A stretch of DNA of 62,938 nt, from assembly GCA_902790495.1 (NCBI GenBank), contig CADASK010000005.1, forward strand, positions 28,486-91,423, in the 5' to 3' direction. A model generated the notes under the pieces. It searched no databases, was not told the origin of the DNA, and saw nothing but the letters and a program-made list of their open reading frames with translations. Positions 36 to 49,246 of the stretch are shown here, in pieces. A program made the position numbers and the translations under genes. Every line of letters begins with the position of its first letter. Within the stretch, counting starts at the first letter, position 1. This DNA is from an uncultured Eubacteriales bacterium. GTDB taxonomy: Bacteria; Bacillota; Clostridia; Christensenellales; Aristaeellaceae.

Positions 36-108
36 ACGGCGGGCGAAGGGTTGCAAGGGGCGATCGCAAAGCCCCTTGCCCGCGCCCGCAGGCGCGGAAC
101 CCTGCTGC
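36..108 (-). repeat. two-hairpin GATCG-loop repeat, copy A (short)
   Basis: Read on the minus strand, hairpin 1 (CCGCGCC-TGC-GGGCGCGG) is followed by hairpin 2 with arms GCAAGGGG / CCCCTTGC around the CTTTGCGATCG loop, then CCCTTCGCCCGCCG. It lies upstream of the rhomboid gene's promoter. First of seventeen copies in the window. Confidence 0.85.
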
Positions 109-138
109 ATAAGCAGTCCAACCGGCAAACAATTCCGT

Positions 139-168
139 TTGACAAACAAAGCCTGAAAACGCTATAAT
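139..168 (+). promoter_or_regulatory. sigma-70-type promoter of the rhomboid gene
   Basis: Consensus -35 TTGACA (139-144) and -10 TATAAT (163-168) are separated by 18 bp. The in-frame ATG at 167 overlaps the -10 box, so it cannot be the translation start. This supports the downstream ATG at 230. Confidence 0.85.
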
Positions 169-229
169 GCCCTCGGCGTCCCCGAGGACATCCCCCCACA
201 CCCCGGACGCCAAGGGAGGGCTTCCCATC

Positions 230-823
230 ATGAACCGCCGCCTGCGCGTGACCTTCAATTCCCCGGCCGTGCTCTGCTTTGCCATCGCCTGCGCGGCGGT
301 GACGCTCCTGGGCGAGATCACCGGCCAGACCAGCACGGCGCTGCTGTTTTCCACGCGCACGTCGTCGCTGGCGGATCCGCTGACCTATGTCCGGCTCTTC
401 ACCCACGTGCTGGGCCACTCGGGCTGGCGGCACCTGATCGGCAACCTGAGCTACGTCCTGCTGCTGGGGCCGCTGCTGGAGGAAAAGTACGGCGCAAAAA
501 GCCTGGTTCGGGTCATCCTGATCACCGCCCTGGTGACCGGCGTGATCCACAACCTGCTCTTCCCGCGCACCCTCCTGCTGGGAGCCAGCGGCGTGGTGTT
601 CGCCTTCATCCTGCTCACCTCGTTCACCGATGTGAAGGAGGGCGAGATTCCCCTGACCTTTGTCCTGGTCGCCCTCATCTACCTCGGCCAGCAGATCTGG
701 GAGGGCGTCACCGTGCGGGACAACGTCTCCAACCTCTCCCACGTCCTCGGCGGCCTGGTCGGCTCCTGCGCGGGGTATGTGCTGAATCAGCGGCGCAGGG
801 CCGGGCGCGGCATGAAGGGCTGA
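230..823 (+). CDS. rhomboid-family intramembrane serine protease
   Basis: A 197-residue polytopic membrane protein predicted to cleave transmembrane helices within the bilayer. The rhomboid signature is complete: GASG with the nucleophile at Ser120, the catalytic His171 in the following helix (LSHVLGG), and an HLIGN segment around residues 68-72 supplying the oxyanion Asn. About six hydrophobic segments fit the basic rhomboid core without an added domain. The ATG at 230 follows a GGGAGGG ribosome binding site and lies about 55 bp after a strong promoter. A terminator follows directly, so it is monocistronic. The substrate cannot be inferred from context. Confidence 0.88.
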   Translation: MNRRLRVTFNSPAVLCFAIACAAVTLLGEITGQTSTALLFSTRTSSLADPLTYVRLFTHVLGHSGWRHLIGNLSYVLLLGPLLEEKYGAKSLVRVILITALVTGVIHNLLFPRTLLLGASGVVFAFILLTSFTDVKEGEIPLTFVLVALIYLGQQIWEGVTVRDNVSNLSHVLGGLVGSCAGYVLNQRRRAGRGMKG

Positions 824-824
824 T

Positions 825-852
825 AAGCCTTTCCTGAGATTATAGGCTTTTT
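825..852 (+). terminator. Rho-independent terminator after the rhomboid gene
   Basis: AAGCCT (825-830) pairs with AGGCTT (844-849), followed by a T run to 852. It starts right after the rhomboid stop codon. Confidence 0.65.
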
Positions 853-872
853 GCACCGGAATGACAAGTTCT

Positions 873-1349
873 TCACGCTAATTCCTCGGAAAGAAGATCA
901 ATCCGGATGGTCAGCCGGCCGCCCAGGGCTTTGGCGATGCGCTCCAGCGTCCCTACGGACGGGTTCGCAATGCCCCGCTCGATCTTGGAGATGTCCGACT
1001 GATCGATGCCCGTGGCAGCCGCCAGCTGTTTCTGGGACAGGCCGCTCAGCGCGCGGGCTGCCATGACCGCAGAGGCTGCTGTCAGGCCGCCGCAGGGCTG
1101 GTCTTCCCGGACAGTCACGCCATCCTCATAGATGGTTTCCGTCTCGATGTCCAGGTCATCATTCCACATGATGCCGTAAGCGCCCATGAGCTTCCCGGAC
1201 AGGAACAGCGCTCTGTCCTTCAGGGCCGTGAGCTGCGGGTACTTGTCAAAGAGCGCCGCCATATCATAGCGTTTCACCTTGCCGTCCTGGAATTGAACCT
1301 CCAGGGCCGTCCCCGTCAGAAACCTCAACCCTGTCGCCTTGTGGAACAT
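873..1349 (-). CDS. DUF2442-HTH (XRE) autoregulator, antitoxin-like
   Basis: A 158-residue protein with two parts. Residues 1-80 resemble DUF2442 (FxDGKVKRYD ... GxMWNDDLDIE). Residues about 88-150 are an XRE/HTH_3 DNA-binding domain (GLSQKQLAAATGIDQSDISKIERG). DUF4160-DUF2442 pairs are widespread and behave like toxin-antitoxin or stress modules. Here the DUF4160 gene lies just upstream with a 35-bp gap. The ATG at 1349 is chosen because GGGGAGGTGA precedes it at good spacing; longer in-frame starts lack a site. It probably binds the palindrome at 1669-1688 and represses its own operon. The toxin/antitoxin role is inferred. Confidence 0.8.
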   Translation of the reverse strand: MFHKATGLRFLTGTALEVQFQDGKVKRYDMAALFDKYPQLTALKDRALFLSGKLMGAYGIMWNDDLDIETETIYEDGVTVREDQPCGGLTAASAVMAARALSGLSQKQLAAATGIDQSDISKIERGIANPSVGTLERIAKALGGRLTIRIDLLSEELA

Positions 1350-1384
1350 GGCCTTCACCTCCCCGGCTCCATCATTTCCAAGCA

Positions 1385-1639
1385 TCACACCAGCGGCGGG
1401 AGCTTGACATACCGCTCGGTTTCCCACATCTCGTTCAGTTCTCTCTGGTACTTTAAGACGAATTCCTTCACCAGCGCCCGGGCCTTCGGAGGAAACTCAC
1501 CCTCCATGATTTCGCCCGTCTCGATGAGGAACGGCGCGTCGAAGTCCTGCGTAATCGCGTGAATGTGAGGAGGATTGTGCTCCTTGTTCCGCAGATACAT
1601 GACAATGATGATCCCGTAAAAATGACTGATCGTCGGCAT
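1385..1639 (-). CDS. DUF4160 protein, partner of the HTH protein
   Basis: An 84-residue protein matching the DUF4160 pattern: GIIIVMYLRNKEHNPPHIHA near the N terminus, with the conserved PPHIH, and a helical C-terminal half (KARALVKEFVLKYQRELNEMWE). It is first in a two-gene operon with the DUF2442-HTH gene. GGAGGTG sits 8 bp before the ATG. Its biochemical function is unknown. Its pairing with an HTH partner and the operator in the promoter suggest a toxin-antitoxin-like or conditional regulatory module, not a metabolic enzyme. Confidence 0.8.
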   Translation of the reverse strand: MPTISHFYGIIIVMYLRNKEHNPPHIHAITQDFDAPFLIETGEIMEGEFPPKARALVKEFVLKYQRELNEMWETERYVKLPPLV

Positions 1640-1665
1640 ATCCGCACCTCCGTTTCTCCGCTTAC

Positions 1666-1694
1666 AGTATAGGGGATAAATCCCCTATTGTCAA
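1666..1694 (-). promoter_or_regulatory. promoter with a palindromic operator in its spacer
   Basis: On the minus strand TTGACA (1694-1689) and TATACT (1671-1666) are exactly 17 bp apart. A perfect inverted repeat, ATAGGGGAT-AA-ATCCCCTAT (1669-1688), fills the spacer. A protein bound there would block RNA polymerase. The obvious candidate is the XRE-type product of this operon. The ilvA start lies 40 bp away on the other strand. Confidence 0.85.
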
Positions 1695-1732
1695 CATCCC
1701 GCCCATCTTTCACCGAACAGGAGGCATCCACC

Positions 1733-2926
1733 ATGGTCACCCTGGACAAAATCTATCACGCGGCCTATGTGCTCAAGCCGGTCGCCCGGCGCACCGACCT
1801 GATCGAGGCCGCCGCCCTCAAAAGCCCCTGCCACCTCTACCTCAAGACCGAGAACCTGCAGCTGACCGGCTCCTTCAAGCTGCGCGGCGCGTACTACAAG
1901 ATCAGCCAGCTCACGGAGGAGCAGCGCAAGGCCGGCATCATCGCCTGCTCGGCGGGCAACCACGCCCAGGGCGTGGCGCTGGCGGCCTCCCGCATGGGCA
2001 TCCGCTCCGTGGTGTGCATGCCCGACGGCGCGCCCATCTCCAAGGTGGAGGCCACCAAGGCCTTCGGCGCGGAGGTCTGCCTGGTCAAGGGCGGCTACGA
2101 CGACGCCTACGCCCACGCCTGCCGCCTGCAGGAGGAGACCGGGATGACCTTCATCCACCCCTTCAACGACGACGAGGTCATCGCGGGCCAGGGCACCATC
2201 GGCCTGGAGATCCTCGACCAGCTGCCGGACGTGGAGGCCGTCATCGTGCCCGTGGGCGGCGGCGGTCTGATCTCCGGCGTCTCCTACGCTATCAAGACCC
2301 TGAACCCCGCCGTGAAGGTCTACGGCGTGCAGGCGGAGAACGCCCCCTCCATGGCGCGCAGCCTCCGCTCGGGCGAGCCCATCACCCTCGAGAGCGCCAA
2401 GACCTTCGCCGACGGCATCGCGGTGAAGCACCCGGGCGACATCACCTACGACATGGTCTCCCGCTATGTGGACGAGGTCGTCACCGTGAGCGAGGACGAG
2501 ATCGCCGCGGCCATTCTGGCCCTGCTGGAGCGGCAGAAGGTGGTGGCCGAGGGCGCAGGCGCGGTGTCCGTGGCGGCGGCCCTGTTCGGCAAGGTGCCGG
2601 TGGCGGGCAAGAAGACCGTGTGCCTGGTCTCCGGCGGCAACATTGACGTCAACATCCTCTCCCGCGTCATCGCCCGCGGCCTGATTACCTCCGGCCGCCG
2701 GGTCACCCTGCAGATCGCCCTGGAGGACAAGCCGGGCCAGCTGGTGGATGTCAGCCGCATCGTGGCCGAATGCGGGGCCAACGTGGTGTCCGTGGTGCAC
2801 AACGTGGCCGACGCCGGCACCGCCGTGACCAGCTGCTTCCTGACCCTGGGGCTGGAGACCCGCGACTTCGAGCAGATCGAGGAGATTCGCCGGAAGCTCG
2901 GGGAAGCTGGTTTCAGGGTGGTTTGA
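1733..2926 (+). CDS. ilvA: threonine ammonia-lyase (threonine dehydratase)
   Basis: A PLP enzyme that deaminates L-threonine to 2-oxobutanoate, the first step toward isoleucine or the catabolic route to propionate. The 397 residues carry the PLP lysine in GSFKLRGAYY (Lys49), the phosphate-binding GGGGL near residue 185, and a single C-terminal ACT-like domain (about 325-397, starting VTLQIALEDKPGQLVDVS). This layout is the short ACT-bearing form related to TdcB/IlvA, so allosteric control is likely but its ligand cannot be read. The ATG follows AGGAGGCATCCACC. The gene is monocistronic with its own terminator. Confidence 0.92.
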   Translation: MVTLDKIYHAAYVLKPVARRTDLIEAAALKSPCHLYLKTENLQLTGSFKLRGAYYKISQLTEEQRKAGIIACSAGNHAQGVALAASRMGIRSVVCMPDGAPISKVEATKAFGAEVCLVKGGYDDAYAHACRLQEETGMTFIHPFNDDEVIAGQGTIGLEILDQLPDVEAVIVPVGGGGLISGVSYAIKTLNPAVKVYGVQAENAPSMARSLRSGEPITLESAKTFADGIAVKHPGDITYDMVSRYVDEVVTVSEDEIAAAILALLERQKVVAEGAGAVSVAAALFGKVPVAGKKTVCLVSGGNIDVNILSRVIARGLITSGRRVTLQIALEDKPGQLVDVSRIVAECGANVVSVVHNVADAGTAVTSCFLTLGLETRDFEQIEEIRRKLGEAGFRVV

Positions 2927-2934
2927 ACTGACAG

Positions 2935-2959
2935 AGAGAAGCCTCGCGCTTCTCTTTTT
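2935..2959 (+). terminator. Rho-independent terminator of ilvA
   Basis: AGAGAAGC (2935-2942) and GCTTCTCT (2948-2955) form a perfect 8-bp stem with a 5-base loop, followed by T2955-2959. Confidence 0.85.
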
Positions 2960-3058
2960 CGTTGGGCGAGGATGCCAGGATTTGCTTGGCCTTCAGCTGG
3001 TGTTCATGCGCTTTTCACATACGGGCCTTAGACTGGGGCGCGAAAGGAGGGAAGCGCT

Positions 3059-3412
3059 GTGAAAACGAAGCGCTGGCTGGCCATCGGCTGCGCGGTGGCT
3101 GTGCTGCTGACAGCCGCGATCGCCATGGGATGCCTCAGGTTGCCGTTTGAGCAGGCTGCGGCGGTCGACGCGGCGGATTACGGCCTTGTGCTGGCCGACC
3201 GCAACGGCGAGGTTTATGTGCTGGCCGTGGAAGAGAACTCCTCCGCCTCCTGCGCGGGCGTGGAGCCCGGCGATGTGGTTGCCAGTCTGGATGGAAACCC
3301 GACGGACAGCGTATCCGCCTTCCAGAGGGTGGAGAAGAGCATCACCTCCTCGCCGGTGATGGTGGTGCATCGCAGGGGTGAGCCGATGTCGGTTTTTCTA
3401 AAGAATCCATGA
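3059..3412 (+). CDS. small membrane-anchored PDZ-domain protein
   Basis: A 117-residue protein with an N-terminal hydrophobic segment (about residues 5-25) acting as a signal anchor, then one PDZ-like fold (about 40-115: LADRNGEVYVLAVEENSSAS, GVEPGDVVASLDG, MVVHRRGEPMSVFL). It has no protease domain, so it resembles an isolated substrate-sensing module of the HtrA/CtpA kind facing the outside of the cell. Translation starts at GTG 3059 after AAAGGAGGGA. A Cys follows AIAMG near residue 25, but the sequence is a poor lipobox. Function unknown. Confidence 0.7.
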   Translation: MKTKRWLAIGCAVAVLLTAAIAMGCLRLPFEQAAAVDAADYGLVLADRNGEVYVLAVEENSSASCAGVEPGDVVASLDGNPTDSVSAFQRVEKSITSSPVMVVHRRGEPMSVFLKNP

Positions 3413-3423
3413 TTCTTTATTGG

Positions 3424-3560
3424 GCTGCAGGGTTCCGCGCCTGCGGGCGCGGGCAAAGGGCTTTGCGATCGGTCCGGGGCTGCCGCCCGCTCTCCGCTGA
3501 AAACTCCATAACATGGAGTTTTCCGGGCGCTCCGAGCCCCTTGCAAACCTTCGCCCGCCG
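3424..3560 (+). repeat. two-hairpin GATCG-loop repeat, copy B (long)
   Basis: Long form. Hairpin 1 CCGCGCC-TGC-GGGCGCGG; hairpin 2 left arm GCAAAGGG, loop CTTTGCGATCG, then the inserted module (GTCCGGGGCTGCC ... GGGCGCTCCGAG) carrying AAAACTCCAT-AA-ATGGAGTTTT-type arms, then the right arm CCCCTTGC with one mismatch to the left arm. It lies between the PDZ gene and the response regulator. Confidence 0.88.
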
Positions 3561-3667
3561 CCATAGAGTGTAATAGGGCATATTAGAGAAGAGTGTCGAT
3601 GCTGAGTGCTTGCAAAAGCTGGCATAAAAGGGTATACTGCAAGCATTGAGCAAGGGAGGATTTGTCG

Positions 3668-4339
3668 ATGCGATTACTGGTGGTGGACGACGAGGCGCGC
3701 ATTCGCGACCTCATCCGCAAATACGCCGTGTTCGAGGGCTACGAGGTGGAGGAAGCCTCCGACGGCATGGGCGCGGTGGAGATGTGCCGCAAGCACAGCT
3801 ATGACCTGATTATTCTGGACATCATGATGCCGGAGCTGGACGGCTTCTCCGCCTGCCGGGAGATCCGCAAGTTCAGCCAGACGCCGGTCATCATGCTCTC
3901 GGCCCGCGGCGAGGAGTACGACCGCATCCACGGCTTCGAGCTGGGCGTGGACGACTATGTGGTGAAGCCCTTCTCCCCCCGTGAGCTGATGATGCGCGTG
4001 GGCGCGATCCTCAAGCGCTCCGGCTCCGGCGCGGCGACCCACGAGGAGATCCAGGTGGGCAGCGGCATGGTCATCGATCTGACGGGCCGCCGCGTGCTTA
4101 TCGACGGCCAGCCCGTGGAGCTGAGCCCGAAGGAGTACGATCTGCTCTTCTACATGGCGAAGAACCGCGGCATCGCCCTCACCCGCGAGAAGCTGATCTC
4201 CGAGGTCTGGGGCTACGATTTCTTCGGCGACGACCGCACGCTGGACACCCACATCAAGCTCCTGCGCAAGTCCCTGGGGGCTTACGCCGACCATATCACG
4301 ACCCTCCGAGGGGTGGGATACCGCTTTGAAAAAGACTGA
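3668..4339 (+). CDS. OmpR/PhoB-family response regulator
   Basis: A 223-residue DNA-binding regulator. The receiver domain (1-115) has the acidic pair Asp7/Asp8, the phosphoacceptor Asp51 (LIILDIMMPE), Ser78 in the Thr/Ser position and Lys100 (VVKPF). A winged-helix effector domain follows (about 125-223, ELSPKEYDLLFYMAKN ... TLRGVGYRFE). The ATG at 3668 is preferred over the TTG two codons earlier because GGGAGG is correctly spaced from it. It overlaps the downstream histidine kinase start by 14 bp, so the two are translationally coupled. Target genes are not evident. Confidence 0.93.
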   Translation: MRLLVVDDEARIRDLIRKYAVFEGYEVEEASDGMGAVEMCRKHSYDLIILDIMMPELDGFSACREIRKFSQTPVIMLSARGEEYDRIHGFELGVDDYVVKPFSPRELMMRVGAILKRSGSGAATHEEIQVGSGMVIDLTGRRVLIDGQPVELSPKEYDLLFYMAKNRGIALTREKLISEVWGYDFFGDDRTLDTHIKLLRKSLGAYADHITTLRGVGYRFEKD

Positions 4340-6002: not shown

Positions 6003-6032
6003 TTCGTTCCGATCTTCACCTTTAGTGGTTTG

Positions 6033-6102
6033 CGCTGCAGGGATTTCGCCGCCTGCGGGCGGCGACCAGAGGCTTTCCGATCGCCTCTGGACTCTTCGGC
6101 CG
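6033..6102 (+). repeat. two-hairpin GATCG-loop repeat, copy C (short)
   Basis: Hairpin 1 is the TCGCCGCC-TGC-GGGCGGCGA type. Hairpin 2 has arms CCAGAGG / CCTCTGG, and the loop reads CTTTCCGATCG instead of CTTTGCGATCG. It lies in the convergent gap after the histidine kinase. Confidence 0.85.
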
Positions 6103-6141
6103 CGTGCGTTGACTTTGGGCTTCGTAAATCCCCATCACGCA

Positions 6142-6181: not shown

Positions 6182-6195
6182 GTTGTCTCTACAGA

Positions 6196-8875: not shown

Positions 8876-8903
8876 GGATTCGAGCCTCGATTCTCTGTAT
8901 AAA

Positions 8904-8965
8904 GTTTCGGCCTATGGCCGACCCGGGGGCTTTGCGATCGCCCCCGGGGCCCCTTCGCCGCTTCC
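8904..8965 (+). repeat. two-hairpin GATCG-loop repeat, copy D (short)
   Basis: Hairpin 1 is the short TCGGCC-TAT-GGCCGA variant. Hairpin 2 arms are CCCGGGGG / CCCCCGGG, perfectly paired around CTTTGCGATCG. It lies between the metF 3' end and the BspA-like gene start, opposite to gene direction. Confidence 0.85.
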
Positions 8966-9880: not shown

Positions 9881-9955
9881 CAGCAGGGGTTCCGCGCCTG
9901 CGGGCGCGGGCAGGGGGCTTTGCGATCGCCCCCTGCACCTCTTCGCGCCTTCGTG
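9881..9955 (+). repeat. two-hairpin GATCG-loop repeat, copy E (short)
   Basis: Hairpin 1 CCGCGCC-TGC-GGGCGCGG; hairpin 2 GCAGGGGG / CCCCCTGC around CTTTGCGATCG. It is preceded by CAGCAGG, like several other copies, and fills most of the gap between metF and the next minus-strand gene. Confidence 0.88.
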
Positions 9956-13156: not shown

Positions 13157-13232
13157 GCGTCGCAGGGGTTTCGCCGCCTGCGGGCGGCGACCCGGGGGCT
13201 TTGCGATCGCCCCCGGGACCCCTTCGCTCTTC
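13157..13232 (+). repeat. two-hairpin GATCG-loop repeat, copy F (short)
   Basis: Hairpin 1 TCGCCGCC-TGC-GGGCGGCGA; hairpin 2 CCCGGGGG / CCCCCGGG around CTTTGCGATCG; then CCCCTTCGC. It lies in the divergent region between znuC and rpiB. Confidence 0.88.
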
Positions 13233-16802: not shown

Positions 16803-16912
16803 AGGAGGAATTCCGCGCCTGCGGGCGCGGGTCAGGGGCTTTGCGGTCGGTCCGGGGCTGCCGCCCGCTCTCCGCTGAAAACTCCATAACATGGAGTTTT
16901 CCGGGCGCTGCC
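16803..16912 (+). repeat. two-hairpin GATCG-loop repeat, copy G (long, truncated)
   Basis: Hairpin 1 CCGCGCC-TGC-GGGCGCGG, left arm GTCAGGGG, loop CTTTGCGGTCG, and most of the inserted module including the AAAACTCCAT / ATGGAGTTTT hairpin. It ends at CCGGGCGCTG, three bases before the marR stop, so the right arm and CTTCGC end are absent. Confidence 0.85.
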
Positions 16913-17658: not shown

Positions 17659-18366
17659 TTACGCCTGACGGAGATAGAGCAGCAGCACGGCGACGCCCAC
17701 CAGCGTCAGGCCGGCGAGGACAGTGACGTTCTTCCGGGTGAAGGTCATCTGGTCCATCCCCCGCGGCAGCACGCCCGCCTGCTCCATCGGGCGGATCACC
17801 AGGCGCAGGAAGAGGATCAGCAGCACGGACTCCACCGGGAACATCACCAGGTTCTTGATGATGCGCGGCAGGTGGAAGACCCGGTAGCTCTTGCCCAGCA
17901 TGATCTGGTAATAGGCCATCATGATGGGCGTCTGCAGGACGATGTTCACGAAAAAGTCGATGCAGAAGCGGGACAGGATGACCCGGAGCGCCGTGATCCG
18001 CGCGCGGTAGAGGAACAGCGCGAAGATCAGGGACCCGGCAATCTCCGTGAAGATGAAGGGAAAGAAATAGGCCCCCGTGGGAAACAGCAGCGCCCCCAGC
18101 GTGTCGCTGACCGCCGCCGCCGCGATGGCCACCACCGGCCCGTAGACCATGGAGCCGAAGGCGTTGACGAAGAAGCCCACGCCGATACGCAGATCAGCCG
18201 CGATGGGGATGCTCACCGACTTGAGGGCCACGCGCAGCGCCACCACCAGGGCGGCGAACACCAGCATCTTCAGGCTCCTGAATTCCCCCGCGGCGGCGCG
18301 CCAGTAAGCCCTGGAAAAGGGCGAGGGAAAGAGCTTGCCGCTGGTTGTATCCGGGAATGCGGACAT
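17659..18366 (-). CDS. folT: folate-family ECF transporter S component
   Basis: A 235-residue integral membrane protein of the folate-type ECF S-component family, the substrate-binding subunit that works with a shared EcfAA'T module encoded elsewhere. Typical segments are LKMLVFAALVVALRVALKSVSIPI, RIGVGFFVNAFGSMVYGPVVA and DTLGALLFPTGAYFFPFIFTE. Starting at ATG 18366 after GAGGAGGTG. The upstream region folds as a tetrahydrofolate riboswitch, which independently supports folate as the substrate. Confidence 0.9.
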   Translation of the reverse strand: MSAFPDTTSGKLFPSPFSRAYWRAAAGEFRSLKMLVFAALVVALRVALKSVSIPIAADLRIGVGFFVNAFGSMVYGPVVAIAAAAVSDTLGALLFPTGAYFFPFIFTEIAGSLIFALFLYRARITALRVILSRFCIDFFVNIVLQTPIMMAYYQIMLGKSYRVFHLPRIIKNLVMFPVESVLLILFLRLVIRPMEQAGVLPRGMDQMTFTRKNVTVLAGLTLVGVAVLLLYLRQA

Positions 18367-18440: not shown

Positions 18441-18445
18441 CATCA

Positions 18446-18541
18446 GCAGCGGGATGCGCCCGGGACACCGCGCCAGAGGTTGGCTTCGTCTCATGACAAC
18501 TCCCCGTTCATGAGCACTTGACGCGTCCAGGGCTACTCTGC
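18446..18541 (-). promoter_or_regulatory. tetrahydrofolate (THF) riboswitch
   Basis: The minus-strand leader of folT carries the conserved THF aptamer landmarks in order and spacing: AGAGTAG, GCGTCAAGTG, GAACGGG, TTGTC, GACGAAGCC, GGCGCGGTG and GCATCCCGC. These are the segments that form the junction and pseudoknot of folT-associated THF riboswitches in Bacillota. A terminator-like hairpin follows before the start codon. It should lower folT expression when reduced folate is plentiful. Confidence 0.88.
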
Positions 18542-18620
18542 CAGATGCGAATCGACAAATCCTGCCGGGATGGTCCCGGCATTAGACACATTCTTCCTGA
18601 TTGTCGAAAATCCTTCTTTT

Positions 18621-22388: not shown

Positions 22389-22518
22389 GCGCAGCGAAGG
22401 GGTGGAGGGGGCTCGGAGCGCCCGGAAAACGCCATGTTATGGCGTTTTCAGCGGAGAGCGGGCGGGCAGCCCCGGACCGATCGCAAAGCCCCCTCCCCGC
22501 GCCCGCAGGCGCGGAATC
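22389..22518 (-). repeat. two-hairpin GATCG-loop repeat, copy H1 (long, inverted)
   Basis: Minus-strand long copy. Hairpin 2 arms GGAGGGGG / CCCCCTCC remain complementary across the inserted module. The module's own hairpin reads AAAACGCCAT / ATGGCGTTTT, both arms changed relative to the ACTCC / GGAGT of the other long copies. It faces copy H2 with about 30 bp between them. Confidence 0.88.
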
Positions 22519-22548
22519 TCTTGCAAATCAACGATATAGCTATCGCTA

Positions 22549-22620
22549 AGAGGATTTCGCCGCCTGCGGGCGGCGACCAAAGGGCTTTGCGATCGCCCTT
22601 TGGAAACCTTCGCGCGCCGC
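22549..22620 (+). repeat. two-hairpin GATCG-loop repeat, copy H2 (short)
   Basis: Hairpin 1 TCGCCGCC-TGC-GGGCGGCGA; hairpin 2 CCAAAGGG / CCCTTTGG around CTTTGCGATCG. A further GCGCCGCAT / ATGCGGCGC hairpin (about 22614-22633) follows. Together with H1 it fills the gap between the regulator and the DUF4342 gene. Confidence 0.88.
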
Positions 22621-25795: not shown

Positions 25796-25928
25796 GGAGA
25801 TTCCGCGCCTGCGGGCGCGGGCAAAGGGCTTTGCGATCGGTCCGGGGCTGCCGCCCGTTCTCCGCTGAAAACTCCATAACATGGAGTTTTCCGGGCGCTC
25901 CGAACCCTTTGCAAACCTTCGCCTTCGC
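25796..25928 (+). repeat. two-hairpin GATCG-loop repeat, copy I (long)
   Basis: Hairpin 1 CCGCGCC-TGC-GGGCGCGG; arms GCAAAGGG / CCCTTTGC are perfectly complementary although separated by the inserted module with AAAACTCCAT / ATGGAGTTTT. It lies between the regulator promoter and the mutS2 3' end. Confidence 0.88.
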
Positions 25929-28324: not shown

Positions 28325-28374
28325 GTCAAGCCTCCCGGAGGATGTCAATCATCCTCCTGCTTTCCTCTATGCAA

Positions 28375-28507
28375 GAGATTCCGCGCCTGCGGGCGCGGGC
28401 AGGGGGCTTTGCGATCGGTCCGGGGCTGCCGCCCGCTCTCCGCTGAAAACTCCATAACATGGAGTTTTCCAGGCGCTCCGAGCCCCCTGCACCCCTTCGC
28501 CTCCCGC
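28375..28507 (+). repeat. two-hairpin GATCG-loop repeat, copy J (long)
   Basis: Hairpin 1 CCGCGCC-TGC-GGGCGCGG; arms GCAGGGGG / CCCCCTGC complementary across the inserted module. It fills the gap between mutS2 and the U32 peptidase gene. Confidence 0.88.
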
Positions 28508-31081: not shown

Positions 31082-31165
31082 AATGGAACCTCTTCCGATT
31101 TTTGAAAAAGCGCCGGTAGGCGGTGTCCCGCCGCCGACGCCATTGCATGGGCTATGCGTTGTATA

Positions 31166-31249
31166 AGGATTCCGCGCCTGCGGGCGCGGGCAAAGGGCTT
31201 TGCGATCGCCCTTTGCAAACCTTCGCCCGCCGCCTTGAAAACGGCGGGC
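31166..31249 (+). repeat. two-hairpin GATCG-loop repeat, copy K (short)
   Basis: Hairpin 1 CCGCGCC-TGC-GGGCGCGG; hairpin 2 GCAAAGGG / CCCTTTGC around CTTTGCGATCG. The trailing CCCGCCG pairs with CGGCGGG at 31241-31249, adding a third hairpin next to the cyclophilin 3' end. Confidence 0.88.
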
Positions 31250-40054: not shown

Positions 40055-40188
40055 GCAGCGAGGGTTCCGTGCCTGCGGGCGCGGGGAGGGGGCTTTGCGA
40101 TCGGTCCGGGGCTGCCGCCCGCTCTTCGCTGAAAACTCCATAACATGGAGTTTTCCGGGCGCTCCGAGCCCCCTCCACCCCTTCGCGT
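40055..40188 (+). repeat. two-hairpin GATCG-loop repeat, copy L (long)
   Basis: Hairpin 1 reads CCGTGCC-TGC-GGGCGCGG, so one pair becomes a G-T/U wobble. Arms GGAGGGGG / CCCCCTCC are complementary across the inserted module. It lies between convergent ispE and the zinc-ribbon gene. Confidence 0.88.
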
Positions 40189-41439: not shown

Positions 41440-41506
41440 CCGCGAAGGGGTCCCGGGGGCGATCGCAAAGCCCCCGGGTCGGCCAGCAGGCCGAAACCCT
41501 TTCTGC
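41440..41506 (-). repeat. two-hairpin GATCG-loop repeat, copy M1 (short, inverted)
   Basis: Minus strand: hairpin 1 TCGGCC-TGCT-GGCCGA; hairpin 2 CCCGGGGG / CCCCCGGG around CTTTGCGATCG. Same subtype as copy D. It pairs with oppositely oriented copy M2. Confidence 0.87.
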
Positions 41507-41566: not shown

Positions 41567-41634
41567 CAGCAGAGATTCCGCGCCTGCGGGCGCGGGTCAG
41601 GGGCTTTGCGGTCGCCCCTGACAACCCTTCGCCT
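41567..41634 (+). repeat. two-hairpin GATCG-loop repeat, copy M2 (short)
   Basis: Hairpin 1 CCGCGCC-TGC-GGGCGCGG; hairpin 2 GTCAGGGG / CCCCTGAC; the loop reads CTTTGCGGTCG (one change, as in copy G). It lies at the gluQ 3' end. Confidence 0.88.
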
Positions 41635-43759: not shown

Positions 43760-43770
43760 ACGCTGCCTCC

Positions 43771-45186
43771 TCAGAAACGGAAATAGATGAACGGGTTGTA
43801 GGTCGAGGTGATGACCAGCACCGCCCCGAACAGCAGCAGCGCACAGGCCGCCACACGGGCGCAGAGGACGCCTTTATCGCTCTCGAGCCAGCCGTTGAAC
43901 CGCTCGCCCAGCACCTCGCGCCAGGGCACGCAGGCCAGCACAGCGGCGATCAGGGTCAGGATCACCCAGCCGTCCAGGTACCAGGCCGCGGTGTAGATCA
44001 CGCGCTCAGGCTGCGCCAGGCCGAACATGATGCCGAGCAGCTGCAGGGTGCCCTGCACGCTCTCCCGGCGGAACAGCACCCAGCCGATCAGCACCCGCAG
44101 CATCGTGAAGAGCCACTGCAGCCAGCCGGGAATCCTGTCCAGCTTCCCGCTCTTAATCAACGGCTTCTCCGCCATCAGCCACAGCCCATGCCACAGGCCC
44201 CACAGCACAAAGCTCCAGGACGCGCCGTGCCACAGGCCGGTCAGCAGGAAGACGGTCAGCTGGTGCAGGTACTGGTTGCCGCGCCGGTTGCCGCCCAGGG
44301 GAATGTAGACATAGTCGCGAAACCAGGAGGAAAGGGAGATGTGCCACCTGCGCCAGAAGTCGGTCATCGTCTTCGCGCTGTAGGGGTGGCGGAAGTTCTC
44401 GAGGAATTCAAAGCCGAACATGCGCCCCAGGCCGATGGCCATGTCGCTGTAGCCGCTGAAGTCGAAATAGATCTGGAACATGTAGCAGATCACGCCCAGC
44501 CAGGTCAGCCCAACGGAGCTGTTGGGCACGGCGGGGTTGAACACGCCGTCCGCCACCTGACCCAGGGTGTTGGCGATCCACGCCTTCTTCACCAGGCCCA
44601 CGGCAAAGCGCTGCACGCCCGAGGCCAGCTTGTCCAGGTCGATCTCCCGGCTGTCGATCTGGGCCTCGATGTCGCTGTAGCGCACGATGGGGCCGGCGAT
44701 CAGCTGCGGAAACAGGGAGATGTACAGGGCGATCTTCAGCGGGTTGCGCTGCACCTTCGCCTTCCCCATGGCCACGTCCAGCACATAGCTCATGCCCTGG
44801 AAGGTGAAAAACGAGATGCCGATGGGCAGGGCGATCTGCCGCACCTCAGCCGTGAAGTGGAACAGCCTTTGCGCCGTCTCCACCGCGAAATTCAGGTACT
44901 TGAAGTAGAAGAGGATGCCCAGGTTGGCCGCCACCGCGCAGAACACCGCCAGGCGCTTCGGCCAGGGGGACGCCTTGCCGGAAGCCGCCCCGACCCACAG
45001 GCCGCACAGGTAGTTGATCAGGATGGAGGCCACCATCAGCAGCGCGGCCCGCGGCCCGCCCCACGCGTAAAACAGCAGCGACATGCCCAGCAAAAACAGG
45101 TTGCGCAGCCGTCTGCCGACCAGATAATATCCCAGCAGCGTGATCGGGAGAAACAAAAACAGGAAGGTGCTGGACGAAAAGACCAT
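43771..45186 (-). CDS. MBOAT family O-acyltransferase (AlgI/DltB-like)
   Basis: A 471-residue membrane-bound O-acyltransferase with about 10-11 helices. The catalytic His lies in LLTGLWHGASWSFVLWGLWHG; FWRRWHISLSSWFRDYVYIPLGGNRRG is the family hallmark. It probably moves acetyl or other acyl groups across the membrane to the downstream AlgJ-like protein for modifying a surface glycan. First gene of the MBOAT-AlgJ-gluQ transcript. Confidence 0.92.
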   Translation of the reverse strand: MVFSSSTFLFLFLPITLLGYYLVGRRLRNLFLLGMSLLFYAWGGPRAALLMVASILINYLCGLWVGAASGKASPWPKRLAVFCAVAANLGILFYFKYLNFAVETAQRLFHFTAEVRQIALPIGISFFTFQGMSYVLDVAMGKAKVQRNPLKIALYISLFPQLIAGPIVRYSDIEAQIDSREIDLDKLASGVQRFAVGLVKKAWIANTLGQVADGVFNPAVPNSSVGLTWLGVICYMFQIYFDFSGYSDMAIGLGRMFGFEFLENFRHPYSAKTMTDFWRRWHISLSSWFRDYVYIPLGGNRRGNQYLHQLTVFLLTGLWHGASWSFVLWGLWHGLWLMAEKPLIKSGKLDRIPGWLQWLFTMLRVLIGWVLFRRESVQGTLQLLGIMFGLAQPERVIYTAAWYLDGWVILTLIAAVLACVPWREVLGERFNGWLESDKGVLCARVAACALLLFGAVLVITSTYNPFIYFRF

Positions 45187-45269
45187 ACTCCACCTCGCGG
45201 TTCAAACTCTTGCCGGAGTGATTATAGCATGATGCGTGCCGGGCCGCAAGCGGGCGGTGTGGATTCCGG

Positions 45270-45992
45270 TCAGGTCAGATTCGTCACCGTTCCCACCGAA
45301 ATACACTGATGGAGGACGGCGTCGAGATCGGAGTTTTCAGCGCCCTGCCAGATCCGTTCGGCGATGTTGGTGATCAGCCATGCGCCCTCACCGGCATCTT
45401 CCTTCAGGTACTGATCGTCGTAAAAGTGCTCCGTCTGCATCACCGTGTTGCGCCGGATCCCCCTGCACGCCTCCGCCGGGCAGTCCGGAATGTTGATGTT
45501 CCAGACCTGGTGGGCCGGCAGCGGCTTCTCCATGTATTCCTCCAAGAGCGCCGGCAGGAAGCGGTCCACAATGTCGGTGGCGCGGAACTCAGGATTTCCG
45601 TAGGAGACCGCGATGGCGGGAACGCCCAGGAAGGCCGCCTCGAGGGCCGCGCCGACGGTTCCGGAATACTGGATATCCGAGGAGATGTTGTACCCGTGGT
45701 TGATGCCGGACAGAACCACGTCCGGCCGGGTCTCCGCCGCCGCGAAGATGCCGACCCGCACGCAGTCGGCGGGCGTTCCGTCCAGGGTGTAGGCTTTTGC
45801 GCCGGCCAGGCCGAAGTCACAGGCCCGCAGGAGCAGTTTTCTGTTGAAGATGCAGTGATGGGACGCGGCGCTTCGCTGGGCGTCGGGCGCCACCACGGTG
45901 ACGTCGCCGAACCTGCAGGCGATCTCCACCAGCTTGCGCAGCCCGTCGGCGCCGATGCCGTCGTCGTTGGTGACCAGGATCTGTTTACGCAT
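45270..45992 (-). CDS. surE: 5'-nucleotidase SurE
   Basis: A 240-residue SurE-type metal-dependent nucleoside monophosphatase. The metal site includes ILVTNDDGIGADG (Asp10, Asp11) and VVLSGINHGYN, with APDAQRSAASH and SGTVGAALEA also present. Housekeeping survival and nucleotide salvage role. GGAGG precedes ATG 45992. It lies 67 bp downstream of the cytidine deaminase gene on the same strand, suggesting a nucleotide-salvage pair. Confidence 0.93.
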   Translation of the reverse strand: MRKQILVTNDDGIGADGLRKLVEIACRFGDVTVVAPDAQRSAASHHCIFNRKLLLRACDFGLAGAKAYTLDGTPADCVRVGIFAAAETRPDVVLSGINHGYNISSDIQYSGTVGAALEAAFLGVPAIAVSYGNPEFRATDIVDRFLPALLEEYMEKPLPAHQVWNINIPDCPAEACRGIRRNTVMQTEHFYDDQYLKEDAGEGAWLITNIAERIWQGAENSDLDAVLHQCISVGTVTNLT

Positions 45993-46059
45993 CTGAACCT
46001 CCATGGACGGTTGTGCTTGTCTCCGCCTGTCCGGCGTCATCAGTGCACGGTATTCGGAT

Positions 46060-46455
46060 TCAGTCAATCCACCACTCCGGCGTCAGGTCGCCTAGCTTCA
46101 TGACGCGGTCCCTGGCATAGTCGAGCATGATCTCGATATCCTTGTAGCGGCCCGGCATCAGCTGCACCATCAGCTCCCTGCAGGCGCCGCACGGCGCGCC
46201 TTTGCCCTCGTTCGGCGGGATGCAGAGCACCCTGTCGATCTCGCTTTCGCCGTTGGTGATCATGTTGAAGATCGCGTTCCGCTCGGCGCAGATGCCCAGC
46301 GTGGAGCAGGTGTCAATGCACACGCCGACGTAGATCTTCCCCGACTTCGAGCGCACAGCGGCGGACACCTCGCCCGCCGTCACATAGTCCGAGATCGACC
46401 GGCCGTTGAGCACCTTCTTCGCGGCGTCATACATATCCTTCCAGATCTGATCCAT
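46060..46455 (-). CDS. cytidine deaminase-family protein
   Basis: A 131-residue zinc deaminase of the cytidine/blasticidin-S deaminase family. The active site is visible as CAERNAIF (Cys56, catalytic Glu58) and PCGACREL (Cys89, Cys92). The conserved substrate-binding FN-type residues of canonical Cdd are not obvious near the N terminus, so substrate could be cytidine, blasticidin-like or another base. It is followed by surE in the same direction. Confidence 0.85.
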   Translation of the reverse strand: MDQIWKDMYDAAKKVLNGRSISDYVTAGEVSAAVRSKSGKIYVGVCIDTCSTLGICAERNAIFNMITNGESEIDRVLCIPPNEGKGAPCGACRELMVQLMPGRYKDIEIMLDYARDRVMKLGDLTPEWWID

Positions 46456-46530
46456 GGTTCTTCCTCCTGTTTGCTGTCCTGAGTCCTGTGCCGTTCATAA
46501 CGATTTCTGCGAATCCGGCAGGGTTACCCC

Positions 46531-47376
46531 TCACGCCTCGTCCAGGCTCTCCTTCATCTCGCGGCCGCGGCGGATCACCCGCTTCAGGGCGTCCTCATCC
46601 CCCGCCGCCAGGGCGTCCCGGTAGGCGCTGAGGTTGCCGATCAGCGTCTCCAGCGCGGGCAGCAGGTCGTCGCGGTTCTCCAAAAACAGCTCCGACCACA
46701 GCTCCTCGCCGACGCGGGCCACGCGGGTCATGTCCGCGAAGGAGCCGGCCGAAAAGCCCTTGTGCTTCGAGGCCAGCGGGCTGTTGACATAGGCGCCGGA
46801 GACCACGTGGGCCAGCTGGGAGGTGTAGGCGATCATCTCGTCGTGCCGGGCGGGCGTGGTGAACACCACCCGCCGGAAGCCGATATCCAGGAAGAACTCC
46901 TTGGCCCGCTGCAGATCCTGCATCTGCTGCAGATCCTCGTCCCCGCGCGGGGTCAGGATCATCGACGCGCGCTCAAACAGATTGTCCCGGCTGTAGCGGA
47001 AGCCGCTGTACTCGCGGCCCGCCATCGGGTGACCGCCGATGAAGCGCCAGGGCCTCCCCTCGGCGATGGGCTGCACGCGCTCCACGATCCAGCGCTTGAC
47101 GCCGCCGCAGTCGATGACCAGCGCGCCCGGGGCGATGCGGTCCGCGTGGGCCGCAATCCACTCCACGATGACACGCGGTCGCGTGGCCACCAGCACGATG
47201 TCGCAGGCGGCCAGCCCTTCGTCCGTCAGCTCGCCGTCGATGGCGTCCATCAGCTCCGCCTGGCGCAGGGCCTCCGGGTCGATGTCCGAGGCGTAGACCT
47301 CATGGTCTGTGTTGAGTTTGATGCTCCGGGCCAGGGAGCCGCCGATCAGGCCCATGCCGATGATGGCGATACGCAT
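46531..47376 (-). CDS. tyrA: prephenate dehydrogenase
   Basis: A 281-residue NAD-dependent TyrA making 4-hydroxyphenylpyruvate for tyrosine synthesis. The Rossmann loop is IIGMGLIGGSLARSI, the catalytic-domain motif is GGHPMAGREYSGF, and the helical dimerisation domain has YTSQLAHVVSGAYVNS. No chorismate mutase or ACT domain is fused. CGGAGG precedes the ATG. Monocistronic; repeat N lies upstream. Confidence 0.93.
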   Translation of the reverse strand: MRIAIIGMGLIGGSLARSIKLNTDHEVYASDIDPEALRQAELMDAIDGELTDEGLAACDIVLVATRPRVIVEWIAAHADRIAPGALVIDCGGVKRWIVERVQPIAEGRPWRFIGGHPMAGREYSGFRYSRDNLFERASMILTPRGDEDLQQMQDLQRAKEFFLDIGFRRVVFTTPARHDEMIAYTSQLAHVVSGAYVNSPLASKHKGFSAGSFADMTRVARVGEELWSELFLENRDDLLPALETLIGNLSAYRDALAAGDEDALKRVIRRGREMKESLDEA

Positions 47377-47420
47377 AGGTGTTTCCTCCGTCAGGTGAAA
47401 TATGAGCCATGTTTGTGGCG

Positions 47421-47483
47421 GCAGGGGGTCCGCGCCTGCGGGCGCGCCAGGGGCTTTCCGATCGCCCCTGGACCCTTCGGGCC
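47421..47483 (+). repeat. two-hairpin GATCG-loop repeat, copy N (short)
   Basis: Hairpin 1 CGCGCC-TGC-GGGCGCG; hairpin 2 CCAGGGG / CCCCTGG with loop CTTTCCGATCG, the same loop variant as copy C. It lies between tyrA and the mannitol/fructuronate dehydrogenase gene. Confidence 0.85.
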
Positions 47484-47506
47484 GTCATTTTATACATATT
47501 GTTGCG

Positions 47507-49114
47507 TTAGAATCTTGCTTCATGCAGCGTGCGGCGCACAGAGCCAGGGCCTGCGAGCATCTGGCGGAAGAGGGTTTCGATTTGCTCGCCGATGCCGGCC
47601 TCGTAGAGGTTCACGCCGAACAGGCCGTTGTCCGAGAGGATCAGCTTCAGCTGACCGGTCAGGGTGGCCGGGTCGTCGGCGCGGACGTCCGCGAGAATCG
47701 CCTGCAGCTCCGCGTTCATCGGGTCGGGCGACAGCTCGTAGGTATCACCCTGGTCGTCCACCGCCAGCAGGTACCGCAGCCAGCCCGCGATGGCCAGCGG
47801 GATCGCCCGCAGCCGCTCGGCGCTGCCGTACTTCGCCTGGTACGCCTTCACCGTCTCGCCGAAGCGCACGCCCACGCCCTGGGAGATGTCCGTCACCAGG
47901 CGCTGCACGGTGTCACCCAGGTAGGGATTCGGGAAGCGCTCGTTCAGGCACTCCTCCAGGAAGGCCCGGGGCGACAGGATGCCCGGGTCAGGTACCGTGT
48001 CCATGCCCTCCTCGCCCACGGCGTGGGCCAGGCGCAGGGAGTCCGCGTCGCGCATCTGGTCGGAGAAGAGCGTGAAGCCCAGCAGGCACCCGAAGGGCCC
48101 CAGGGCGGAGTGGATCGGGTTGAGGCAGGCGGTCACCTTCATCCGCTCGGACTTGTTCACCGTGGCGCGGTCGGTCATGTAGACCCCCGCCAGCTCCAAC
48201 GGCGGCCTGCCGTTGGGGAAGCTGTCCTCGATGACCAGGTACTGCGGCCCCTCCGCGTTGACAAAGGGCGCGATATAGGTCTGCTTCCCGGTGACGATGG
48301 GCTCCATTCCCTCCAGGCCGAGGGCCTCCAGCCGCTCCGCCACAGCCTCGCTGGGCCGCGGGGTGATCTTGTCGATCATCGTCCAGGGGAAGGCCACCCG
48401 GCCCTCGTCGCCGACCCAGGCGAGGAAATCCTCGCCCACAAAGCTGCGCTCGCGCCATGCCTGCGCCACCTGCAGCACCGACGCGCGCAGGCGGGAGCCG
48501 TTCTGGGAGCAGTTGTCCATGGAGACCAGGGCCAGGGGCGTGCCGCCCGCCCGGAAGCGCGCCCACAGCATCGCCGTGACGATGCCCATGGCCGTGCGCG
48601 CCGCGTCGGGGCCGTTGTCCAGATCCGCCCGCACCGCGCCGAAGTACGCGCCCGCGGTGTTGGTCAGGGCGTAGCCCTTCTCGGTGATGGTGAAGGAGAC
48701 CAGCTGCAGGCTCTCCGCGCGGAAGACCTCGCGCAGCCGTTCCATCTGCGCCGGCTCCTCCGGCGCGGCCTTGATGGCCTCGCACATGGAGCCCAGCACG
48801 CGCTTCTCCTCGCGGCCGTCGGCGTGGAGAATCACGCTGAGGCCGAGGTTATCGTAGGGGCGGTAGATGCGGTCCACCACCTCGCCGTCGTAGCACTCCA
48901 CGCAGGTGATGCCCCGGTCCATCGCGCCGCGGCTGAGCAGCTGATCCGCAATGCCGCCCAGGAAGACGCGGAAGATATTGCCCACGCCAAAATGCGCCCA
49001 GACAGGGGCCTCGACGGTGCGGCGGGCAGTGGCCTCGGCGTCATAGGAGGGCAGGATGATACCGGCCTGGTCCCAAGGTGTGCGGTCGGCGATTCCGGCA
49101 TAGGTCAAACGCAT
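47507..49114 (-). CDS. mannitol dehydrogenase-family oxidoreductase (fructuronate reductase-like)
   Basis: A 535-residue NAD-dependent polyol/sugar-acid dehydrogenase. The N-terminal Rossmann part has FGVGNIFRVFLGG; the catalytic region has SERMKVTACLNPIHSALGPFG with the Lys/Asn/His set of the family. Fructuronate reductase (UxuB) or mannitol 2-dehydrogenase activity is likely, but no hexuronate genes are adjacent to decide. ATG 49114 is favoured over ATG 49123 because AAAGG then has 8-bp spacing. Confidence 0.85.
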   Translation of the reverse strand: MRLTYAGIADRTPWDQAGIILPSYDAEATARRTVEAPVWAHFGVGNIFRVFLGGIADQLLSRGAMDRGITCVECYDGEVVDRIYRPYDNLGLSVILHADGREEKRVLGSMCEAIKAAPEEPAQMERLREVFRAESLQLVSFTITEKGYALTNTAGAYFGAVRADLDNGPDAARTAMGIVTAMLWARFRAGGTPLALVSMDNCSQNGSRLRASVLQVAQAWRERSFVGEDFLAWVGDEGRVAFPWTMIDKITPRPSEAVAERLEALGLEGMEPIVTGKQTYIAPFVNAEGPQYLVIEDSFPNGRPPLELAGVYMTDRATVNKSERMKVTACLNPIHSALGPFGCLLGFTLFSDQMRDADSLRLAHAVGEEGMDTVPDPGILSPRAFLEECLNERFPNPYLGDTVQRLVTDISQGVGVRFGETVKAYQAKYGSAERLRAIPLAIAGWLRYLLAVDDQGDTYELSPDPMNAELQAILADVRADDPATLTGQLKLILSDNGLFGVNLYEAGIGEQIETLFRQMLAGPGSVRRTLHEARF

Positions 49115-49167
49115 GGGGATCATCCTTTCGATAGGTTGATCGATCTATGAATTCTTTCCTGTATTTT

Positions 49168-49246
49168 AGCAGCAGGGAGTTTCGCCGCCTGCGGGCGGCG
49201 ACCAAAGGGCTTTGCGATCGCCCTTTGGAAACCTTCGCCCGCCGTC
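49168..49246 (+). repeat. two-hairpin GATCG-loop repeat, copy O (short)
   Basis: Hairpin 1 TCGCCGCC-TGC-GGGCGGCGA; hairpin 2 CCAAAGGG / CCCTTTGG around CTTTGCGATCG, then CTTCGCCCGCCG. It is the last copy seen in the window. Confidence 0.88.

Follow-up and report, generated by a model that had tools for sequence, protein, structure and literature searches.

A dispersed two-hairpin intergenic repeat with covarying stems and a putative loop-tail pseudoknot in an uncultured Eubacteriales bacterium

Repeat copies in the window and the hairpin cassette

The window analysed here, a stretch of 62,938 nucleotides from an uncultured Eubacteriales bacterium, contains 17 copies of a structured repeat (Table 1). 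An earlier, sequence-only reading had placed all of them between genes, 14 on the plus and three on the minus strand, and positions and strands were confirmed for every copy. None of the 17 overlapped a predicted gene by more than 20 bases, and two of 116 copies did so in a larger sample of the same genome; genes were predicted with our own hexamer gene caller, no curated annotation being used.

The element is about 58–64 nt long, or about 125 nt with a cassette (see below). It had been described as hairpin 1 and hairpin 2, the latter with a nearly invariant loop, followed by CTTCGC. The loop is indeed mostly constant, except that its fifth base, G or C, changes in concert with the final base of the tail; two copies, at 6073 and 47454, possess the loop CTTTCCGATCG and the tail CTTCGG. 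The simple two-hairpin layout did not extend to six of the 17 copies (2, 7, 8, 10, 11 and 13), which are of a long form, with the loop and the 3' arm of hairpin 2 split by a hairpin of about 65 nt, the cassette.

Table 1. Positions of the repeat copies in the window
Feature	Position	Strand	Description
Copy 1	43..103	-	short form, stem GCAAGGGG/CCCCTTGC
Copy 2	3429..3554	+	long form with cassette, stem GCAAAGGG/CCCCTTGC, one mismatch
Cassette inside copy 2	3472..3536	+	65-nt hairpin; extent from comparison of short and long orthologues
Copy 3	6039..6099	+	short form, loop CCGA, tail TCGG
Copy 4	8901..8958	+	short form, shorter hairpin 1 (TCGGCC)
Copy 5	9885..9946	+	short form
Copy 6	13164..13227	+	short form, stem CCCGGGGG/CCCCCGGG
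Copy 7	16806..16909	+	long form, right-truncated within cassette (cassette part 16850-16909)
Copy 8	22394..22521	-	long form with cassette; head-to-head with copy 9
Copy 9	22551..22613	+	short form, stem CCAAAGGG/CCCTTTGG
Copy 10	25796..25922	+	long form, stem GCAAAGGG/CCCTTTGC closing round cassette 25840-25904; syntenic site in G010 without copy
Copy 11	28374..28500	+	long form, cassette 28418-28482; syntenic site in G010 without copy
Copy 12	31165..31226	+	short form; syntenic site in G010 without copy
Copy 13	40061..40186	+	long form, stem GGAGGGGG/CCCCCTCC, cassette 40104-40168
Copy 14	41442..41501	-	short form, common to G010; head-to-head with copy 15
Copy 15	41571..41632	+	short form, stem GTCAGGGG/CCCCTGAC, common to G010
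Copy 16	47423..47480	+	short form, loop CCGA, tail TCGG
Copy 17	49176..49238	+	short form

The pairing arm of hairpin 2 was kept in five of the six long forms, one of them with a mismatch; the sixth, at 16839, is cut short on its right side. At two orthologous sites only one of the two species had the cassette, and the species having it differed between the sites. Fifty-two cassettes were found inside this element and four in other repeats, and three other repeat families contain it; ten of 11 distinct cassette stem-loops were paired. Most likely, the cassette is a second small hairpin element, which enters the stem apex in this and in other repeat families. If this is true, a hairpin common to several repeat families, which some orthologous copies have and others lack, would represent a tiny parasite of parasites. 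Among the left halves in the own-genome sample, where the 3' arm was sought within 170 nt, none was seen to belong to a longer, autonomous version carrying a gene in its loop.

Covariation of the stems and loop-tail complementarity

Sequence comparison indicated that both stems are conserved by compensatory change. In an alignment of 80 hits, 72 of them distinct (A7), 163 cells were changed on both sides, compared to 46 on average over 500 shuffles, none of which reached 163, and to at most 31 when the partners were slid. The covariation suggested previously exceeded these controls. Further pair types, examined in alignment A8, were not above shuffles (23 vs. 24.4), and the counts of G·U and A·C in the stems of A7 (6 vs. 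4) favoured neither strand.

Two additional structures were considered and rejected: an outer stem AGGGGT/ACCCCT closing the whole element, for which 73% of the cells in A7 were paired and one pair was unpaired in 35 of 66, and a third hairpin beyond the 3' tail, where folding was not in excess over letter shuffles in comparison with regions further away. A search of the whole window against Rfam release 15 returned no family matching the element, and its sole match was to a THF riboswitch at another place; a search with one long copy gave at best a weak match (16.6 bits, threshold 70).

A feature absent from the earlier description is a four-base complementarity between the loop of hairpin 2 (GCGA or CCGA) and the 3' tail (TCGC or TCGG), which would form a pseudoknot. 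Among the 151 distinct copies 145 could be parsed in this way. Their outer (first) pair was G-C in 95 and C-G in 50, with no crossed combination, and both states were present on five stem alleles. The fourth pair was A-T in 117 copies, G·T in 25 and unpaired in three; the third or the fourth pair was broken in six of the 145. Compensatory switching occurs at one of the four pairs only, while one is A-U or G·U and two are nearly constant; in A7 the loop-tail helix was 99.7% paired. The length of the linker equalled that of the stem minus 3 in 129 of the 145 copies, i.e., it increases one-for-one with the stem, as an H-type pseudoknot would need. With loop-tail complementarity, compensatory change and length scaling, the element appears to possess the properties of an H-type pseudoknot, and the wobble at its fourth pair suggests that the plus strand is the one that folds. 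Selection on structure, which had been proposed from the stems, is supported beyond the original case, since loop-tail complementarity was also found.

By eye, the linker looked mirror-like relative to the sequence of the 3' arm, e.g., CCCTTTGC with AAACC and CCCCCTGC with ACCCC; the length part alone was tested.

Copy number, empty sites and orientation

In the genomes compared, the element is present in hundreds of dispersed copies, their numbers are very uneven among related genomes, and many orthologous sites are empty. The core pattern had 239 exact matches in the own draft genome, the same pattern written backwards none; a sample of 457,583 bases (19% of the genome) contained 124 model hits. 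Within the genus, where up to 150 candidates were scored for each genome, at least 150 model hits were obtained in each of the genomes G000, G001 and G002, 82 in G010, 58 in G004 and 23 in G008; the remaining six genomes had 0 to 7, and five genomes of the genus had 0–4. In the family, the element was found in 36 of 200 genomes and in 12 of 50 genera. One strict pattern gave no matches in viral contigs, and one short copy used as query gave no match in plasmids. Five human faecal scaffolds of a phage collection were matched; the proteins of two of them were checked, and both look like mislabelled bacterial DNA, since one carries genes for RapZ and WhiA and the other for RNase J.

For 25 own copies both flanks were found in G010, the closest relative found. 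A copy was present at nine of these syntenic sites, and none meeting a strict pattern at 16, a picture which gain in one species and loss in the other would produce alike. A MITE of a known insertion sequence would have terminal inverted repeats and a target duplication; in this element the outer stem was only 73% paired, and at the empty sites seen the sequences between genes differ too much from one species to the other for a duplication to be defined.

Copies are located downstream of genes. Only four of 112 classified copies were in gaps between divergent genes, though such gaps make up 12.4 of 57.9 kb. In gaps between tandem genes the element was antisense to the genes in 54 cases and sense in 36; the corresponding numbers for G010 were 20 and 12. 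Pairs closer than 160 nt were head-to-head in eight cases, tail-to-tail in three and tandem in two. A bias of gene strand versus replication strand, which would be expected from single-strand transposition, was detected in the genome of the window (76 of 114; permutation test, p 0.003); it was not seen for first codon positions alone and was not reproduced in G010 (19 of 37, p 0.5).

Readings of the element and known systems

The reading we favour, with some reservation, is that of a mobile element which is REP-like and non-autonomous and acts through a single strand in folded form, comprising hairpins 1 and 2 and a pseudoknot marking the 3' end. A REP-like mobile sequence had been one of two earlier suggestions; it fits the spread of copy numbers, the missing orthologues and the head-to-head pairs, but the element is not a strict REP, because the GTAG/CGTC tag is absent and the Y1 transposase does not track copy number. 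A single strand would fold into hairpin 1, hairpin 2 and the loop-tail pseudoknot, and this fold would be read by some trans-acting enzyme; no mobilising enzyme was found among the families searched. The loop tetranucleotide could specify the tail as the end, after the manner of IS200/IS605 guide sequences. Insertion would be tolerated mainly downstream of genes, and transcribed copies may double as mRNA 3' structures.

The other earlier suggestion, a regulatory or processing RNA, is the poorer fit, since 16 of the 25 syntenic own copies are absent from the nearest relative. An RNA element serving the host at the 3' ends of genes, as an mRNA stabiliser or processing signal, duplicated and kept by host selection, would agree with the covarying stems and with the position downstream of stop codons, antisense copies being 18–48 nt from the stop in 35 of 54 cases in the own genome and in 8 of 20 in G010. 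Apart from the missing counterparts, the near or complete lack of hits in five genomes of the genus speaks against it, as does the excess of antisense copies in tandem gaps, whereas the fourth-pair wobble points to folding of the plus strand; we consider it unlikely.

Slightly less probable still is the view that the compensation reflects inheritance of a few subfamilies together with gene conversion, without structural selection. A limited set of stem alleles does recur among the copies, and traces of conversion were found: a mosaic copy (L017:442-501) joins the 5' arm of one allele to the 3' arm of another, and at an orthologous site (L096:6074 vs. L005:1241) the allele had changed while a rare mark in the loop of hairpin 1 had stayed. 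Such processes do not account well for the occurrence of both pseudoknot states on five stem alleles with no crossed copy, for a linker tracking stem length, or for the same pattern of pairing in the cassette hairpin.

It is unlikely that the element is a genuine REP and that a Y1 (RAYT/TnpA-REP) transposase moves it. It resembles REP/RAYT as portrayed in parts of PMC3733652 and PMC8266576 in its abundance, in forming head-to-head pairs, in lying 3' of genes and in the guide-like pairing of a tetranucleotide, and the strand bias in the own genome would agree. However, Y1_Tnp was not found in the genus genomes with at least 58 hits (G000, G001, G002, G004 and G010; drafts, 66–95% complete), and in the family it was present in just 6 of 19 element-rich genomes compared to 77 of 200 overall. 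Neither a GTAG nor a CGTC tag was conserved at either end; flank profiles gave RRGRTT at the 5' end (112 copies) and TTCGC at the 3' end (105 copies). A retro-element copied from RNA by reverse transcriptase is very improbable: the fold is RNA-like and may have a pseudoknot at its 3' end, but RVT_1 had no match in the same five drafts (66–95% complete).

As for an IS110-type (bridge RNA) element, DEDD_Tnp_IS110 passed the cut-off in a single genome, G003, and G000, G007 and G010 had matches below it. Y1/RAYT, reverse transcriptase and IS110 were rejected as mobilisers, none being associated with the element, and the own-genome sample (19% of the genome) contained no gene-length repeated DNA of more than 200 bases and 80% identity.

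Tentatively, the mobile element could perhaps stand for a new class of mobile repeats, with a switchable loop-tail end code, a novel enzyme family and a cassette of about 65 nt parasitising stem apices in at least four repeat families. Selection appears to hold a tertiary-type loop-tail contact in several genera, with no enzyme to match. Should the loop-tail pairing be a recognition code, it would help to track down the mobiliser, and natural variation alone would allow an inexpensive test of whether the pseudoknot forms.

Interspersed repeats of bacteria are often presented as simple palindromes that Y1 transposases move; a Y1 transposase is needed for the movement of IS200/IS605, and BOX elements are of modular make-up. 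REPs are palindromes of 20–40 nt, tagged at one of their ends by GTAG or CGTC, according to the portions of PMC3733652 used here. The same portions report for REP, REPIN and BIME with RAYT (TnpA-REP) several features shared by our element, namely high copy number, intergenic location downstream of genes, head-to-head dimers and subfamilies with complementary changes in the stem (PMC3733652). Unlike REPs with RAYT, the element has two hairpins plus loop-tail complementarity instead of a single palindrome of 20–40 nt, and has neither the GTAG/CGTC tag nor a link to a Y1 transposase. CGTC REPs are palindromic repeats apparently without a dedicated transposase; their terminal motif is a different one, and the excerpted description contains no pseudoknot (PMC3733652). 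BOX, RUP and SPRITE of Streptococcus pneumoniae, compared here by description, are likewise small structured repeats of a Firmicute, parasitic in appearance, with past proliferation and slow insertion now; unlike for our element, no cassette shared among families is described in the part of the account consulted (PMC3049150). In IS200/IS605, an internal tetranucleotide specifies the cleaved end by base complementarity, as outlined in extracts of PMC8266576. Our element likewise contains, within its borders, a tetranucleotide complementary to its end, but the guide of IS200/IS605 is located 5' of the palindrome, whereas the tetranucleotide of this element is in the loop (PMC8266576, same extracts).

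Stems and proposed loop-tail pseudoknot

The element is a real, structurally constrained, dispersed repeat. The 17 copies that the sequence-only reading had placed in the window, 14 on the plus and three on the minus strand, were all located there. Eleven have the short form (about 58–64 nt) and six the long form, in which a hairpin-bearing stretch of about 65 nt, here called the cassette, separates the loop from the 3' arm of hairpin 2. This arm still pairs in five of the six long copies, in one of them with a mismatch; the long copy at 16839 is truncated.

The covarying stems that had been claimed were borne out by compensatory changes in two alignments; since the hairpin model guided their fitting, their hairpin counts are biased towards it. 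In A7, which comprises 72 distinct short copies from the own genome, pairing was 99.6% in hairpin 1 and 98.8% in hairpin 2, with 163 cells changed on both sides versus 46 in shuffles; in A8, with 46 distinct copies drawn from further species and genera within the family, 106 such cells were counted versus 32, and 93% were paired versus 84%, further pair types not being above shuffles (23 versus 24.4). The stems in A7 contained six G·U and four A·C, which gave no strand preference.

The sequence-only reading had missed that the tail TCGC is complementary to the loop CTTT-GCGA-TCG, and that the tail TCGG accompanies the loop CTTT-CCGA-TCG. The predicted pseudoknot helix, absent from the fitted model, reached 99.7% pairing in A7; in A8, whose rows include some with a shifted tail, the figure was 92.9%. 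Among 151 distinct sequences from the alignments A6, A7 and A8, 145 were parsed with a pattern requiring the tail YTTCGN and thus blind to changes at tail positions one to three; two of the remaining six are cut by the end of a stretch, one has the tail TTTGC, two are long forms that the model misread, and one has a short hairpin 1. Pair 1, between the first loop base and the last tail base, is G/C in 95 and C/G in 50 of the 145 copies and crossed in none. Both states were found on five stem alleles and are present in the own genome, in G010 (the nearest relative used for synteny) and in other genomes; thus, the switch occurred, or was recombined, several times. Pair 2 is invariant, pair 3 is broken in three copies, and pair 4 is A-T in 117, G·T in 25 and unpaired in three; any pair is broken in 6 of the 145. 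The wobble at pair 4 without A·C favours the plus strand as the putative folded strand, a change of the tail T being invisible to the parse.

Stem (including the closing C-G) and linker lengths were 7-4, 8-5, 9-6 or 10-7 in 129 of 145 copies; since the linker would cross the stem, this match is what an H-type pseudoknot needs. By eye, the letters of the linker also seem to reflect those of the hairpin 2 3' arm, a T-richer arm going with an A-richer linker and C-run lengths rising together (the length relation only was counted), as would be expected of a linker lying in the groove of the stem.

Abundance and placement

The draft genome (2.47 Mb) contains 239 exact matches to the core pattern and none to the reversed pattern, which served as a chance control. 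The proposed covariance-model search, carried out with a model (R1) built from four short window copies, yielded 124 matches at E up to 0.01 in own-genome stretches totalling 457,583 bases (0.27 per kb, not an unbiased density, since these stretches were picked for pattern matches), and further matches in genus and family. Several hundred copies per genome would be a fair reading. Among 12 genomes of the genus, three had at least 150 matches, the maximum number of candidates scored in any genome, three had 82, 58 and 23, and the others 7, 4, 2, 2, 1 and 0. In the family, 36 of 200 genomes, belonging to 12 of 50 genera, gave a match at 1e-6 in a search with stricter filters than that of the genus and at most 26 candidates scored per genome. 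Titled relatives among the matches listed were uncultured Clostridia/Clostridiales MAGs, including some RUG isolates (presumably rumen genomes). Two human-faecal scaffolds, MT838813.1 and MT839801.1 (L141 and L142), entered as unverified "Bacteriophage sp.", also contain the element; they look like bacterial chromosome labelled as phage, since one encodes RapZ and WhiA and the other RNase J. In G001, a genome of the same genus, head-to-tail arrays whose unit measures about 98 nt (L087, L082, L026) suggest local tandem amplification.

In the window, all copies had been called intergenic, and none overlaps a predicted gene there by more than 20 bases. In the larger own-genome sample, judged by the gene calls made in this analysis, an overlap above 20 bases was seen for 2 of 116 copies. 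Two others lie at an edge, and 112 were classified by neighbouring genes: 90 tandem (54 antisense, 36 sense), 18 convergent and, although divergent gaps make up 12.4 of the 57.9 kb of intergenic DNA, four divergent. Antisense copies were 18–48 nt from the stop codon in 35 of 54 cases. For 37 copies of G010 the numbers were 20 antisense (eight of them 18–48 nt from the stop), 12 sense, two divergent, none convergent, three at an edge and none overlapping a gene. In the own sample there were 13 cases of neighbouring copies no more than 160 nt apart, and eight of these were head-to-head. With GC skew corrected for gene strand, the plus strand was on the C-rich side in 76 of 114 own-genome copies (rho -0.73 over 21 loci, permutation p 0.003); this was absent in the own genome with first-codon-position skew alone, and absent in G010 (19 of 37). 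A strand bias of the element is unproven.

Proposed movement of the element and its cassette

Both 500-nt flanks of 25 own copies were present in the fetched part of G010, with a copy there in nine cases and none, by a strict pattern, in 16; neighbouring copies were counted separately, and for one of the nine (L032) the flanks match weakly, at 72 and 61% identity. In the reverse test, 11 rows, which represent eight distinct G010 copies because some of the loci overlap, gave an own-genome counterpart for seven and absence for one. Alleles at shared sites can differ in a coordinated manner: between L057:6250 and L004:10624 (fetched stretch:position) the 5' arm differs together with the 3' arm and linker, and between L096:6074 and L005:1241 the allele changed while the rare TGTG loop of hairpin 1 was retained. 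Recombination between copies also occurs, since L017:442-501 is a mosaic.

The species differ in form at two orthologous sites, where they share the stem allele and the near flanks are almost identical: the own genome is long and G010 short at L017:8527, and the own genome is short at L016:11989 and G010 long (L064/L103). The forms differ by 65 nt, located where the loop meets the 3' arm. Around L016:11989 the displayed 40 nt or so on either side are identical to those at L064:430 and L103:8430, the 500-nt flanks being 89 and 93% identical; the identical near flanks reflect either recent exchange or strong constraint.

A one-pattern count in the fetched samples of both genomes gave 56 cassettes, 52 inside the element and four in other structured repeats (see table). 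In these cases the cassette occupies a stem's apical end, at or beside a C run, with junction letters varying between families. Uninterrupted copies of two of these families, R3 and R4, also exist. Between the cassette in a G010 R4 copy and one in an own-genome element, 59 of 62 positions agree; a compensatory change within the cassette stem accounts for two of the other three. We infer that the cassette is probably another mobile hairpin of small size. The short/long orthologous pairs would be accounted for just as well by conversion between copies, but cassettes in other repeat families less well.

By eye, loops of R3 and R4 are complementary to their own tails, e.g., GCAA with TTGC in R4. 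At three sites outside the window the element directly follows a GGCTCTCCC-type repeat, without the usual TT before hairpin 1.

Locations of cassettes in other repeats, of repeat families and of other window features
Feature	Location	Strand	Remarks
Cassette in R2 family	L011:15352	minus	GGCTCTCCC...GGGAGAGC
Cassette in R3 family	L111:9840	minus	
Cassette in R3 family	L113:5642		
Cassette in R4 family	L108:7210		
R3/R4 repeats	L103:18495, L113:5596, L005:1107		long G-run/C-run stem, short linker; some copies with cassette
R3/R4 repeat	L087:1092	minus	as preceding line
Second structured repeat family	window 1-30	minus	GGCTCTCCC..GGGAGAGC..GACTGAGAGGG
Second structured repeat family	L006:5562, L007:1775		
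Second structured repeat family	L017:407	minus	
THF riboswitch	window 18445-18542	minus	84 bits, Rfam RF01831
Frame just downstream of riboswitch	window 17659-18366	minus	ECF transporter S component match, slightly under Pfam cut-off
Repeats with 69-nt period	window 61851-62402		six overlapping 207-nt matches, within the following frame
505-aa frame	window 61421-62938	minus	match to BspA-type leucine-rich repeats

The search for a mobilising enzyme covered RVT_1, IS110 and Y1_Tnp, to which the RAYT and IS200/IS605 transposases belong. None of the five genus genomes with at least 58 element matches gave a Y1_Tnp match (drafts, in which a single gene may be missed); it is present in G007, G008 and G009 of the same genus, with 2, 23 and 0 element matches. 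Across the family it occurs in 77 of 200 genomes but in only 6 of the 19 with at least eight element matches, a comparison that assumes the same draw of 200 genomes (the handles agree) and for which the listing of genomes lacking a match is incomplete. Neither RVT_1 nor IS110 was a better candidate than Y1_Tnp in these draft genomes.

Relation to known repeats

No earlier account of the element was found in the open-licence literature on bacterial repeats, a body from which subscription papers are mostly absent; the papers considered were PMC3733652, PMC8266576, PMC8632094 and PMC3049150. The element is not classed as a REP, because defining features of REPs were looked for in it and not found. 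The description that fits best is a REP-like mobile element with a new design, in which two hairpins are combined with a predicted loop-tail pseudoknot.
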